This document shows, piece after piece, positions 25,126-28,955 of a DNA stretch of 64,000 nucleotides; position 1 is the stretch's first letter, and each line of letters opens with the position of its first letter. The translations under genes and the position numbers were made by a program. Source of the DNA: an uncultured Bacteroidia bacterium (lineage in GTDB: Bacteria > Bacteroidota > Bacteroidia > Bacteroidales > UBA932); the NCBI GenBank assembly GCA_902790635.1, contig CADASN010000006.1, positions 28,784 through 92,783 on the forward strand, given 5' to 3'. The notes beneath the pieces were generated by a model. That model was given only the letters and a program-made list of their open reading frames with translations. It was not told where the DNA came from and made no database searches.

Positions 25126-26259
25126 TTAATATTGCTCCATTGCTAAATATCTGGACAGGAACACATTATATACGGAATACGAAGTTCGGTCTTCCTCGGT
25201 TGTGGCTAGAACAAGTTCTTTGTCAATAAGGGCTTTTATATTCCTTAACGCCGTTGGTCCTGAGGTGATGCCATATTTTGATAGGAATGCAGAAGACGTT
25301 ATCTGCAAAACGCTGTCTTCCTTTGCAATCGCGCTGAGCATCTTCCATTGAGCACGTGTAATCAGCCGTCGGATTTCCCTGAATCTCTCCCGCTCGCCGT
25401 CAAGAATTGCCTGTATGGCCTTAAGCACGATATCCCTATCGACTTTGCTATCGGATAGTGAGAATACTTCATTGCAAAGACGTTGTGTGTAATATGTGTG
25501 TACCCGGGTCCATTCCAGGATATAGTCAATAGATTCGCTGTCGATGTTTTTTCCGGCTGATTCGAACTTCTCCCGAATAAATGCGCCATAAACCTTCACG
25601 GGCAGCTTCGTCAGATAGCAAAAGGATGTGCTCTCGTAAAAAGGCTTCTTGGCGTTGGTGAACATATCGGTCATCGTGTGCTTCTTGCTACCACAGTAGA
25701 TGAATCGGACATTGTGCAGATGCTGGATATGTTTCCTAAGGATTGCCTCCATGTTAATACCTTCGTATTCCTGTATTTGCTGGAACTCGTCAATGGCAAA
25801 GACAATCATCTGCGGATAGCTCTCGAGATAACCCAGAACATCTTTTAATGTGTTTTGTTGTTGATTCTCATCGGCAAAAGAAAAAGAGACTTGAGGCGAA
25901 CCAGTCATTGGGTCTAACCCAAGTAATGGCCTGACACTTTTTAAGGACTTGAAGAAGGCGGATATCCGATGCTGTTTCTTTAGTTTGGATACAACCGCAT
26001 CAGAAAGGGCCTTTATGAATTCTTCTAGGGAGAGCGTGTCACTGATATCTGCATAGATGGTTTCATAAGGTAGTTGTCGTTCTTTTATCTCTTCAAACAC
26101 GCGGAATATTAATCCGGTCTTACCCAACCTGCGAGGTGAGATAAGTGTGGTATTGCGCCCGTTTGTGATATTGCGGAGGATTTCTTCCGACTCTTTTTCC
26201 CGGTCGCAAAAGTACTTCTTTGATTTGAAGGGTTCCAGTATAAAAGGATTCTCAAGCAT
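25126..26259 (-). CDS. AAA-type (archaeal ATPase family) ATP-binding protein
   Basis: The 377-residue protein starts MLENPFILEPFKSKKYFCDR and has Walker A SPRRLGKT (about residues 39-46), Walker B IVFAIDEFQQI (about 150) and a sensor-like FIYCGSKKH. A C-terminal winged-helix part (FLSKYGITSGPTALRNIKAL) follows. This family is common in Bacteroidales accessory DNA; proposed roles are STAND-like signalling or mobile-element functions, none established. It is AT-rich relative to the window. A perfect -7 box lies 16 nt upstream. A decayed relative may lie at 22605-22739. Confidence 0.85.
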   Translation of the reverse strand: MLENPFILEPFKSKKYFCDREKESEEILRNITNGRNTTLISPRRLGKTGLIFRVFEEIKERQLPYETIYADISDTLSLEEFIKALSDAVVSKLKKQHRISAFFKSLKSVRPLLGLDPMTGSPQVSFSFADENQQQNTLKDVLGYLESYPQMIVFAIDEFQQIQEYEGINMEAILRKHIQHLHNVRFIYCGSKKHTMTDMFTNAKKPFYESTSFCYLTKLPVKVYGAFIREKFESAGKNIDSESIDYILEWTRVHTYYTQRLCNEVFSLSDSKVDRDIVLKAIQAILDGERERFREIRRLITRAQWKMLSAIAKEDSVLQITSSAFLSKYGITSGPTALRNIKALIDKELVLATTEEDRTSYSVYNVFLSRYLAMEQY

Positions 26260-26283: not shown

Positions 26284-26404
26284 ATTAACATAATGTTAAT
26301 AACAAATTGTTTTCGCAAAAACCATGGTTAAATCTGCCGTAAGGAGACTAAAAGTGACCGTGAAAATGTCGTTTATTTGTATTCGATAAATCGGGAAATT
26401 GCAT

Positions 26405-26477
26405 GTCTTGCCCGACCTGATCGGGCATCTCTAACAGGGTGATTAGCAAAGAGATTCCCGGTCAGGCCGGGAATGAC
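26405..26477. repeat. nested palindromic repeat, intergenic copy
   Basis: Two arms (26405-26431 and 26451-26477) are each hairpins by themselves (GCCCGA..TCGGGC; TTCCCGG..CCGGGAA) and are also near-complementary to each other, with a 19-nt spacer. The arm core is GAGAT..CCGGTC..GCCGG..ATGAC. A related copy sits inside the U32 gene at 43923-44026. The 26260-26582 gap holds the AAA ATPase promoter, this repeat and the tRNA terminator; no gene was seen. Confidence 0.7.
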
Positions 26478-26526
26478 GGATGTCTGGAAGAAAAATGTGA
26501 CCAAATGCGACCAAATTTTGGGGATA

Positions 26527-26582
26527 CAAAAAACAAGACTTTGTAAAGTGTTTGAAAATCAACAACTTACAAAGTCTTGTTG
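26527..26582 (-). terminator. rho-independent terminator of the tRNA-Leu unit
   Basis: On the complement, 15-bp perfect arms (plus-strand 26532-26546 and 26567-26581) enclose a 20-nt loop and run into a T tract, immediately after the tRNA 3' end. Confidence 0.85.
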
Positions 26583-26633
26583 TGCCTCGGGCGGGACTCG
26601 AACCCGCACGGCCGTTTCGGGCCAAGGGATTTT

Positions 26634-27358
26634 CTTGCCACTATGGCTTTCGCCACCATTCACTGTTTGTGGTCCGGACTATTCCTTCACCATGGATCTG
26701 AGATCTTTAGGTGTGTCGTGTCTAGTCTCTGCACCTTCCTCCCGTAGGAGGCTTGGCTCAAGATTACCATCGGCATGACCCGTTAAGGTTTCCTTGAATT
26801 TACGACATTCTACATCGTTCTTTTCAGAACGCGCACTCATTCGTGCTCTTCCTCGATAATTACTTGTAAGTGCATGGCAATTGGGGCAAAGTAATTGGAG
26901 ATTCTCAAGTCGATTATCTGAATTTAATCCATTTATATGATGAATCTCCAATGGAATTGGCTTATCCTGCCATGTATCAAGACCACATTTTTCACATCGG
27001 CATATCCCTGTAGTTCTTTTATAATGCTCGCGAAGCCTCCACGAACATTTATATGAAGAATTCTCTATAAAGATATCTTGATCTGAAAAACCACTCTTGG
27101 GTTTGAAAGCAAGGCCAACATTCCAGCCTTGACCTGTAAAATGGGAACTATCCATTCCGTTATCGATTATTAATCGCTTAATAGTTCGATAGTTTCCACC
27201 AATAGGTTTAAGCCCTAATTGTCGCAAAACACCGGCAACGGATTTGTTATCTGCAACCGCTTGTTTTACATCATCAATCGTGTAGCCTACTCTGCTCATA
27301 TTGCAAAGTTAAGCTTTACTCTCACGTTTTACAAATAATTATGTCAAAGAACTAGCAT
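26634..27358 (-). ncRNA. group I intron (self-splicing ribozyme) in tRNA-Leu(UAA)
   Basis: The 725-nt intron can be folded on the complement. P3 pairs TGTCGT (26802-26807) with ACGACA (26714-26719). P4 pairs TCAAG (26793-26797) with CTTGA (26758-26762). P5 pairs ACC (26787-26789) with GGT (26766-26768). P6a is a perfect CCTCC-TACG-GGAGG hairpin (26738-26751). P7 pairs GACTA (26723-26727) with TAGTC (26677-26681), within R-like GCAGAGACTAGAC and S-like AAGGAATAGTCC. P8 uses CACC/GGTG (26710-26713, 26688-26691). A GAAA-capped hairpin (26644-26655) fits P9. The intron ends in G (26634), as required. The first 59 nt hold P1/P2 candidates, then an HNH gene. A subgroup IC-like core is inferred. Confidence 0.93.
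26679..27299 (-). CDS. intron-encoded HNH homing endonuclease
   Basis: The 206-residue protein has an N-terminal helical DNA-recognition part (DDVKQAVADNKSVAGVLRQL). The zinc-stabilised HNH domain follows: C102/C105 (CEKC), LEIHHINGL with H120/H121, DNRLENLQLLC with N129, and CPNCH with C138, C141, H142. Such enzymes cut intronless alleles and spread the intron by homing. The start lies 59 nt inside the intron. From about residue 164 the frame runs through P3, P4-P6, P7 and P8, and the TAG stop (26679-26681) is part of the P7 3' strand. The C-terminal 40 residues therefore probably reflect ribozyme constraint rather than enzyme function. Confidence 0.9.
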   Translation of the reverse strand: MSRVGYTIDDVKQAVADNKSVAGVLRQLGLKPIGGNYRTIKRLIIDNGMDSSHFTGQGWNVGLAFKPKSGFSDQDIFIENSSYKCSWRLREHYKRTTGICRCEKCGLDTWQDKPIPLEIHHINGLNSDNRLENLQLLCPNCHALTSNYRGRARMSARSEKNDVECRKFKETLTGHADGNLEPSLLREEGAETRHDTPKDLRSMVKE

Positions 27359-27399
27359 AAGTCCCTCGTGTCTACCATTCCACCACCAAGGCGTGGTTG

Positions 27400-27407
27400 C
27401 AAAGGTA
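27400..27407 (-). promoter_or_regulatory. -7 box of tRNA-Leu
   Basis: Complement reads TACCTTTG, ending 7 nt before the tRNA 5' end; a TTG (plus-strand 27427-27429) lies 19 nt upstream. Confidence 0.65.
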
Positions 27408-27440
27408 GTTATTTTTTGCCAACTACCAATGCACCGGAAA

Positions 27441-28955
27441 CTACTGCGGACGCGGGCCGCCGGGACGGCCGCCGCCCATGCCGAAGAAGCCGCGCTGTTC
27501 GGTCTTGGCGTTCGGGTCGATGGCCTTGGCAACGATCTCGGCGATCTTGCGGGCGCCCTGCTGGGTCGGATGGATGCCATCCGCCTGATAGAGAGCATCC
27601 TGGCCGGTGAAGGCCGTATGGAGATCGATGATCTCCAGCTTGTTCTTCTTTGCGGCAGCTTCGATGGCGGGGATCTCCTCCCCGGCAATCAGCTGCTCAT
27701 TGATGGTCCAGCTGTCCTTGATGGCGGGAATCGGCGTGCAGAGCAGGATCCGCGGCTTCGAAGGCAGGGCCTTCAGCGCATCGATCATCTTCTGCAGGTC
27801 GGCGGCGAAAGCCTTCCGGTCCTTCCAGTTGTGCGACTTGGTGTCGTTGGTGCCCAGCTTGATCACGACCACGTCCGGCTGGAACGCCAGCGCATCCTGC
27901 CAGGCCAGTTCGTTCGTGTACGGCAGGTCGCCGGTCGTCATCAGCGTACGGGCGGATACGCCCAGGTTCTTCACGAAATAGCCGTCTCCCAGCATCGTCT
28001 GCATCTGGGCGGGATAGCCGTTGGTGCTGCGCAGGTCGATGCCGTGGCCGTCCGTGATGCTGTCGCCGATGCAGGCCACGCGGACGGCGTCCTGCCGGGG
28101 CGCCTTCAGGTTCTCCAGCCAGGCCGAGAGGTCGGAGACCATCTGGTCATGGTAGGCGAAGAACGGCATGTAGCCGTAGCCATGCCCGCCGGTCGGATAG
28201 ATGTGGATCGAGCAGCTGTTGCCGGCATTGCGCATCGCGGTGTAGTAGGCGATCGCGTTCGGCACGGGCGGCACGAGGTTGTCGTCGCTCGAGAGCACGA
28301 GGAAGGCGGGCGGGGTGATGTGGCTGCGCACCTGGCGCTCATTGCTGTACAGCGCCACCAGCGCCGGGTCCTTCTGTCCCTCTTCGCCGAGCAGGCCATC
28401 CAGGGAGCCCTGGTGCGTGCCGCGTCCCATCGTGATCACCGGATAGACCAGGATCTGGAAATCGGGACGCAGCTCATAGGGTGTGTGCGTAGCAATCGTG
28501 GAGGCGAGGTGACCGCCGGCGGAGGAGCCCATGATGCCGATGTCGCGGGGATTCAGTTTCCACACGGCAGCACTGTCGCGCACGATGCGCATGGCCGTCT
28601 CGACGTCCGTGATGGGCAGGGTCCGGTCCCCGTGGGGGATGCGGTAGTTCACGAGCATGAATGCGATGCCACGCTCATTGAAAAACGGTGCCCAGGCCGA
28701 TCCTTCATGGGTATTGGACAGCACGGCATAGCCGCCGCCCGGGCAGTCGACGACCGCGCGTCCGGTCGGCTCCTGAGGCAGATATACCACCATCTGCGCC
28801 GCCCCGTCGGGGGTCAGGTCCAGCGTGAACTGACGCGCCGGCACGGCCAGCCCTTCGAGGACGGGCGCCTGGCCGAAGCCGAAACCCGGCTGTGCGCCGG
28901 CGGTCAGCGCAACCGCCAGCAGCAGGGAGATGAATACAAACTTTTTCATATCCAT
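27441..28955 (-). CDS. two-domain secreted esterase: alpha/beta hydrolase plus SGNH/GDSL hydrolase
   Basis: After a signal peptide (KFVFISLLLAVALTAGA), residues of about 40-290 form an alpha/beta hydrolase of the acetyl-xylan-esterase/BD-FAE type with nucleophile motif GSSAGGH and a catalytic-His region PTGGHGYGY. From about 295 an SGNH hydrolase follows with block I CIGDSITDGHG, block III KLGTNDTKSH and block V QADGIHPT. Both domains typically remove acetyl or other acyl groups from polysaccharides, so it is likely a bifunctional carbohydrate deacetylase in the periplasm. It begins 4 nt after the rodA stop and is the last gene of the rod-shape operon. A second ATG at 28949 is possible. Confidence 0.85.
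   Translation of the reverse strand: MDMKKFVFISLLLAVALTAGAQPGFGFGQAPVLEGLAVPARQFTLDLTPDGAAQMVVYLPQEPTGRAVVDCPGGGYAVLSNTHEGSAWAPFFNERGIAFMLVNYRIPHGDRTLPITDVETAMRIVRDSAAVWKLNPRDIGIMGSSAGGHLASTIATHTPYELRPDFQILVYPVITMGRGTHQGSLDGLLGEEGQKDPALVALYSNERQVRSHITPPAFLVLSSDDNLVPPVPNAIAYYTAMRNAGNSCSIHIYPTGGHGYGYMPFFAYHDQMVSDLSAWLENLKAPRQDAVRVACIGDSITDGHGIDLRSTNGYPAQMQTMLGDGYFVKNLGVSARTLMTTGDLPYTNELAWQDALAFQPDVVVIKLGTNDTKSHNWKDRKAFAADLQKMIDALKALPSKPRILLCTPIPAIKDSWTINEQLIAGEEIPAIEAAAKKNKLEIIDLHTAFTGQDALYQADGIHPTQQGARKIAEIVAKAIDPNAKTEQRGFFGMGGGRPGGPRPQ

Follow-up and report, generated by a model that had tools for sequence, protein, structure and literature searches.

Is the tRNA-Leu(UAA) gene of this Bacteroidales genome split by a working group I intron, and, if so, where did the intron come from and does it still move? 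We examined a window of 64,000 nt (the whole stretch of DNA that was analyzed) from a gut bacterium. Its genus is taken to be Cryptobacteroides, since locus L008 of a same-genus genome (G012) lies, letter for letter, within a record titled Candidatus Cryptobacteroides onthequi. The tRNA-Leu(UAA) intron was among the first bacterial group I introns described, and it is part of the debate over vertical descent versus transfer. As far as the accessible portions of the published texts go, it has been used as a marker (PMC4476775), the cyanobacterial and plastid form is given a more ancestral origin in these groups (PMC4033280), tRNA group I introns are recorded for cyanobacteria and for alpha- and beta-proteobacteria (PMC4033280), and bacterial group I introns reside mostly in tRNA and rRNA (PMC3984707). 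We consider it very probable that the locus carries a splicing, homing group I intron that has repeatedly invaded tRNA-Leu(UAA) and has been exchanged with phages; this reading is limited by the lack of RNA or biochemical data, and cleavage of the empty site has not been shown and is inferred.

With introns allowed, ARAGORN called a tRNA-Leu(taa) of 86 bases with an intron of 725 nt inserted at 34-35 (gactt/aaaat), and both exons are intact and fold. Without the intron option, the same program reported no tRNA in the window and missed the split gene; the accessible part of one paper states that tRNAscan-SE was not designed for tRNA group I introns (PMC8450103). The sequence-only reading had joined two tRNA fragments 725 nt apart into a complete class II tRNA-Leu(UAA), and the ARAGORN call gave exactly its coordinates. 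Its placement of the insertion between U34 and A35, the classic position in cyanobacteria and plastids and the defining site of the tRNA-Leu(UAA) intron family, is backed by the exon fold and by exact empty sites in two same-genus loci (L017 and L019), where the gap is 0 and ARAGORN calls tRNA-Leu taa for both. The features of the locus are collected in Table 1. The Bacteroidetes-type reading of TACCTTTG upstream of the tRNA rests on TAnnTTTG, which we take to be the -7 box consensus.

Table 1. Features of the split tRNA-Leu(UAA) locus (window coordinates).
Feature	Position	Strand	Basis
Likely transcription terminator: inverted repeat followed by T run	26528..26580	-	sequence
3' exon of tRNA-Leu(UAA), start AAAATCCC (A35)	26583..26633	-	sequence; ARAGORN
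Group I intron, 725 nt, ATGC start, GGCAAG end	26634..27358	-	Rfam, empty sites, covariation, ARAGORN
P9 and P9b	26638..26672	-	alignment; one P9 pair fails in 4/14
P7 (26729-26723 with 26681-26676), guanosine-binding helix	26676..26729	-	Rfam and alignment; invariant
HNH endonuclease ORF, 206 aa, in P1 loop, running into ribozyme core	26679..27299	-	ORF, Pfam, phrog_10822, alignment
P8 and P8a	26688..26713	-	alignment; two P8a pairs fail in 4 and 2 of 14
P3 (26807-26802 with 26719-26714)	26714..26807	-	compensatory changes at 2/6 pairs
P6a hairpin	26738..26751	-	compensatory changes at 5/5 pairs
P4-P5 (26797-26792 with 26763-26758; 26789-26787 with 26768-26766)	26758..26797	-	Rfam and alignment; P4 invariant; outer P5 pair unpaired in 7/14
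P2 hairpin	26817..26830	-	14-core alignment
Internal guide AU-GAG, pairing partner of exon CUU and intron AU (P1, U34.G wobble)	26836..26840	-	GAGTGC in 132/132 distinct introns
HNH domain, Pfam PF01844, residues 102-143	26871..26996	-	Pfam
Promoter-like TTTG-N20-TAACTTTG, 4 nt before HNH start codon	27304..27335	-	leaders of relatives
5' exon of tRNA-Leu(UAA), 3' end ...GGGACTT (U34)	27359..27392	-	sequence; ARAGORN; empty sites
TACCTTTG, Bacteroidetes-type -7 box just upstream of tRNA	27400..27407	-	sequence

At curated thresholds, Rfam gave no match in the window. With an E-value threshold (search of 26500-27480), Intron_gpI (RF00028) matched at 26877-26659 over the full model (1-253) with 45.2 bits and E 4.3e-10; the proposed Rfam check was thus answered by a significant end-to-end match that lies under the curated gathering score of 50. 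Since the search at the gathering score was empty, the evidence was rebuilt from relatives. In an alignment of 14 relatives' cores (A1), 97.4% of 723 cells are paired under the structure, in which P3/P7 form a pseudoknot; one P6a pair fails in 2 of the 14. Changes on both sides were found at 19 pairs, compared to 9.4 ± 1.8 after shuffling (0/500) and 3-5 when the structure was slid; the number of further pair types was not above that of shuffled alignments (195/500). Covarying helices, our criterion for a group I intron, were found in P2, P3, P6a, P8, and P9, while P4, P6, and P7 never vary and are neutral on covariation. The single-sequence fold has a z of -3.36, and by resemblance the intron is presumably of subgroup IC3 type. 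The complementary P3-P8 segments and terminal G described earlier were right, and the call of a group I intron in tRNA-Leu(UAA) stands on the covariance match, covariation, exact empty sites, and exon fold.

All 132 distinct introns have the guide GAGTGC and a terminal G, so that the criterion of a U.G pair in P1 together with a final G is fulfilled. In 95% of them, the base preceding GAG pairs with the first base of the intron, compared to 77% in shuffles (0/1000); P1 extension at positions +2 to +4 was no better than shuffled over all introns. A hairpin GUAAAG-CUUAA-CUUUGC with the nearer CGUGAG, considered as P2/P1, was ruled out, as the ORF-less introns place the guide after the ORF.

The sequence-only reading was correct on the intron and missed the HNH ORF inside it, its mobility, and the phage link. 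Because the guide GAG (26838-26836) follows the HNH domain, the ORF is placed in the P1 loop, with its 3' end reaching into the core. It scores 24.5 bits against Pfam HNH (cut-off 21.4) and matches phrog_10822 with E 1.6e-43. Thirty-two columns are invariant in 22 HNH sequences, including E118, H120, H121, N123, D128, R130, N133, and four cysteines, so that the criterion for an HNH endonuclease (domain above the curated cut-off, active-site residues conserved) is met. Of 351 pairs, six are in the usable range; their dN/dS of 0.07-0.16 shows purifying selection on the gene, and the four closest pairs give 0.08-0.16. An AF2 prediction of the fold reached pLDDT 84 and pTM 0.54. Foldseek with this model found nothing at E <= 0.001, and its best weaker matches were to HNH nucleases, McrA and Cap5 among them; against solved structures there was no profile sequence match at E 0.01, and the best single-sequence match had E 0.034. 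No HNH relative was found in plasmids. TTTG-N19/20-TAnnTTTR occurs 4-19 nt before the start in 20 of 28 leaders of intact HNH genes, compared to 0.22 expected in shuffles; the leaders are homologous, so these counts are not independent. The internal promoter is inferred from this motif, which we assume follows the Bacteroidetes promoter consensus.

The overlap of ORF and core raises the possibility of true dual coding, in which selection would maintain the overlap of the endonuclease ORF with the ribozyme core. Every one of the 28 intact HNH frames extends at least 31 codons into the core, and five phage loci (L315, L318, L321, L325, and L311) have a frame that passes through the core and goes on into an additional C-terminal region. 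Against this, the frame is open for at least 33 codons in 39 of 64 introns of <=260 nt without HNH, vs 15 of 28. As the same frame is equally often open without HNH, RNA constraint alone explains the overlap in bacteria; selected dual coding was rejected there because the frame is equally open in short HNH-less introns, and as a general explanation we regard it as unlikely. In the five phage introns, the region past the core appears by eye to be cysteine-rich and helix-turn-helix-like; since the HNH frame crosses the core in these introns, the core RNA is also coding there.

If the split gene were a dead pseudogene, a working tRNA-Leu(UAA) would have to lie elsewhere, absent from a draft genome (G000) that is only 83% complete. 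The draft has 36 tRNA matches, and the eight class II loci read are Leu CAA, CAG, and GAG, Tyr, and four Ser, with no tRNA-Leu(UAA) among these eight. With the spliced tRNA as query, only two matches were found in the genome, where only two candidates were scored. The assembly is indeed incomplete, tRNA-Leu(UAG) is likewise not among the class II genes read, and some other MAGs of the genus have both an intact and a split copy, all of which leave room for the pseudogene. Against it, both exons are intact and fold, the ribozyme core covaries, and in the near-complete intron genomes G089, G097, and G172 (98-99%) two matches of split-exon strength were found and none stronger (again with two candidates scored per genome). 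We hold a dead gene to be extremely improbable and prefer a spliced, working tRNA. The claim that the cell would depend on splicing unless a second copy exists is supported to the extent that no second UAA gene was seen, and weakened by the 83% completeness.

The tRNA-Leu(UAG) missing from the class II tRNAs read in G000 is either missing from the draft or also interrupted. Six MAGs (G071, G106, G176, G239, G245, and G264) contain intact and intron-bearing tRNA-Leu(UAA), pointing to two copies or mixed bins. UUA codons are rare in the window, with 28 of 17,105 in 33 ORFs (picked by length, some maybe shadow ORFs), and the HNH ORF has 5 in 207 codons. An ATPase-like ORF (by eye) at 25126-26259, with a GC content of 0.44 vs mostly 0.5-0.66 in other window ORFs, holds 7 of the 28 and is perhaps an acquired gene. 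A palindromic repeat (CCCGGCCTGACCGGGAATCTC ... GAGATGCCCGATCAGGTCGGGC) at 26404-26484 has many copies across the genus.

In a first comparison, 61 genomes (our own and 60 relatives) yielded 20 loci, and the same-genus tRNA-Leu(UAA) genes were uninterrupted or had introns of 210-739 nt. A model built from A1 (R1) matched 150 of 400 genus genomes, and 63 of 150 high-quality ones. In the 134 genomes read with both exons, the intron lies at the same site and ends in G in 134/134; the suggested search of other genomes for the same split thus returned 134 genus introns, all between the same exon ends. The other 16 of the 150 were left out: no tRNA was seen by ARAGORN at L115 (G061) and L117 (G216), a contig end cuts a lineage-A-like intron after a tRNA-Leu 5' half at L116 (G239), the 3' exon is under the limit or off the contig at L101, L125, and L188, contig ends cut the loci of G010 and G015 (L006 and L002), and the loci of G009, G075, G091, G155, G236, G237, G318, and G389 are also outside the 134. 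A second R1 match of G230 (L114) lies outside any tRNA gene seen by ARAGORN. HNH-bearing introns measure about 722-756 nt and ORF-less ones about 210-290 nt, with intermediates in between. Lineage A, defined by core motif, has 110 introns (65 of <=260 nt, 15 intermediate, and 30 of >=700 nt), lineage D has 20 (15 short and 5 with a 160-aa HNH), and lineages B and C have 2 each. In four introns of 384-402 nt (L011, L077, L149, and L172) a different insert, common to the four by reading-frame similarity, replaces the HNH gene in the P1 loop; that of L011 has repeated GTCAACGTGGCAA words.

The presence of the intron, judged from genome sequences, flips between sister species. We built a host tree from PBP2 (one gene, quick search) of 60 genomes chosen by us for completeness, half with an intron and half without. 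Of 32 intron genomes, 30 entered the tree; for G100 and G147 the protein was found but no locus came back. Lineage A needs 15 changes on this tree, 14 of them forced by starred branches; shuffled labels need 19.5 on average and were as low in 6 of 500 cases, so the label is partly clustered. Three rows are doubtful: G239 was labelled intron-free though it also holds the contig-end intron piece L116 beside an intact copy, for G061 there is a weak extra R1 match (L115), and G091 has unread exons. Without these three, lineage A needs 14 changes. Sister pairs that differ are G305/G119, G081/G078, G069/G398, and G190/G351, and G005/G061 with the caveat of the weak G061 match. Tree changes alone cannot separate gain from loss, and one could argue that the intron splices with the HNH gene as a passenger, vertical inheritance and loss alone producing the patchiness. 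Lineage D fits that account, forming one host clade and thus behaving vertically, as do the 65 short introns among the 110 of lineage A. It is strained by the 14-15 lineage A changes with mixed sister pairs on short branches, by the purifying selection on HNH, and by the rejection of a single origin of the genus introns (AU p 0.0006), and we judge it improbable. Our preferred reading of a homing intron has only indirect support, from the host-tree changes, the selection on HNH, and the range of intron sizes.

Relatives were also found in phages. The core motif AAGGTGCAGAGACTMGAC occurs in 20 viral stretches and in at least 118 genome stretches; the 80 of the latter that were listed are mainly from cyanobacteria and Bacteroidales. 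The HNH search gave 169 viral relatives (80 kept), with up to 52% identity in viral contigs. In 28 of 100 viral loci (25 contigs, 19 distinct cores), ARAGORN calls an intron in tRNA-Leu(taa) that encloses an R1 core, and 20 of these 28 have an HNH-like ORF; as the viral loci were fetched by HNH or motif, HNH-bearing ones are over-represented. Two further viral Leu(taa) calls without a core were left uncounted. The junction reads CTT/...G/AAAAT in 12 of the 13 phage junctions printed, and in L308 the 5' border set by ARAGORN lies two bases further on. Introns of this kind are also present in the huge phages LR756511 and LR756501. Two candidates were set aside: crAss-like phage cr111_1 resembled a tRNA-Leu intron carrier by its annotation, yet its HNH follows a complete tRNA-Leu(UAG) rather than lying inside, and cr115_1 has a related core at which the ARAGORN tRNA-Ser call is doubtful. 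In cr111_1 (L407, 1438-1956) a free-standing related HNH gene directly follows tRNA-Leu(UAG) in a tRNA array. In Klebsiella phage Muenster (L410, 1459-1693) a group I core is flanked by tRNA genes and followed immediately by an annotated tRNA-Asn of 84 nt; the record may have overlooked a split tRNA gene here.

To place these introns, we constructed a core tree from 96 loci picked by us (208 columns, 26 of 110 lineage A loci), in which bootstraps are unsettled and some branches are long. Lineage B falls inside a phage clade (100/99), and phage L338 is grouped with lineages C and D (98/92). A fork supported at 85/94 (not starred) unites lineage A with most of the remaining phage introns, as well as with introns from archaea and Omnitrophota. 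AU tests rejected as one clade A+B+C+D (p 0.0006), A+C+D (0.008), and A+B (0.023), and did not reject B+C+D (0.12), A alone (0.46), or C+D (0.50), so that the genus introns have at least two origins by test and three as drawn by the tree. In the HNH tree (SH-aLRT, quick search), the lineage A sequences form a single clade (99) and those of lineage D fall with phages L336, L339, and L346 (94). The direction of transfer between phage and host is inferred.

The resemblance to the cyanobacterial and plastid intron invites the alternative that this intron derives from it, vertically or by transfer. The two share the gene, the insertion in the anticodon, the core motif AAGGTGCAGAGACTMGAC, and, we presume, the CUU/GAG P1. 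The cyanobacterial introns nevertheless form one separate clade (100/100, with Tatlockia L214 inside) apart from the genus lineages, and lineage A with cyanobacteria was rejected as one clade (AU p 0.004), so membership of the cyanobacterial clade was not supported; descent from that intron is very improbable in our estimate. The intron calls at named cyanobacterial tRNA-Leu loci are about 219-390 nt, too short for this HNH, and presence flips between sister species here, in contrast to the ancestral origin stated for the cyanobacterial and plastid intron.

We therefore keep to the mobile intron with phage relatives as the preferred reading, whose proposed life cycle is largely inferred. In self-splicing, the guide GAG would pair with exon CUU, and a guanosine bound in P7 would attack after U34; the freed U34 would then attack after the terminal G, joining the exons into the tRNA. 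The HNH protein, probably expressed from its own promoter inside the intron, may cut or nick intron-less tRNA-Leu(UAA) genes near the anticodon, with repair copying the intron in. After fixation the HNH gene would decay to leave an ORF-less ribozyme that still splices, and such an intron could be lost and the site re-invaded. Phages carrying tRNA-Leu(UAA) would offer the same target, and intron lineages may have crossed between phage and chromosome on more than one occasion. As related introns occupy this position in many sister species and in tRNA genes of viruses, the classic site still seems to be colonised.

Small ribozymes in anticodon loops are also known as the introns of Azoarcus tRNA-Ile and alpha-proteobacterial tRNA-Arg, in which we know of no HNH, and the nuclease of the cyanobacterial tRNA-fMet intron is PD-(D/E)XK, not HNH. 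As described in the available parts of the sources, the former are likewise small anticodon-loop ribozymes in other tRNAs (PMC3984707, PMC8450103, PMC4033280), and the latter likewise carries an endonuclease at the anticodon of a different tRNA (a title cited in PMC3984707). Phage group I introns with HNH share the family phrog_10822, and relatives in viral contigs reach 52% identity. In the portions accessible, phage introns known by 2014 are placed in protein-coding genes (PMC3984707) and crAss-like phage introns in core protein genes (PMC7886860), whereas the host gene here is tRNA-Leu(UAA); for the tRNAs of Lak phages, introns are mentioned without their class (PMC8346664). No description of this element was found in the literature searched, including what was available of PMC10136315 and PMC12386605, and coverage was incomplete; the accessible text of PMC11835236 and PMC6125680 has no word beginning Bacteroid. 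The earlier statement that no tRNA-Leu group I intron had been described in Bacteroidetes met no counterexample in the literature searched, with subscription papers mostly outside. Within a single genus, well over a hundred genomes have the classic site occupied by apparently mobile, endonuclease-bearing relatives. With empty, HNH-bearing, intermediate, and ORF-less stages all present, gain, decay, and loss of a tRNA intron become countable, and a phage route into a probably essential host gene becomes directly testable. More speculatively, tRNA-Leu(UAA) might be a shared homing target of gut bacteria and phages, in which phages carry the tRNA because UUA is rare in such hosts, phage copies act as an intron reservoir, each host genus is repeatedly colonised from phages, and the cyanobacterial and plastid trnL intron is a domesticated relic of the same kind of element; we offer this as a possibility and at present doubt it.

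In the order sample the intron is sparse, with R1 matches in only 3 of 393 genomes (own included), and the phylum sample gave matches in 28 of 345 genomes (own included) and 19 of 155 genera. By ARAGORN, phylum loci L475, L477, L481, and L412 are tRNA-Leu(UAA) with the same junction, and L476 and L478 are tRNA-Leu(UAA) with the junction one base earlier, L476 having an HNH of this family. In other Bacteroidota, L482, L483, and L485-L488 have group I cores in tRNA-Leu called CAA or CAG by ARAGORN, and L489 and L493 have tRNA introns of ~620-670 nt with non-HNH ORFs that resemble PD-(D/E)XK nucleases by eye. Three records titled Candidatus Pacearchaeota archaeon (L190, L193, and L257; assigned by title only) have group I cores with tRNA-Asn(gtt) intron calls by ARAGORN, which would be an unusual place for such introns if the genes are archaeal; an HNH-like ORF is present in L257.
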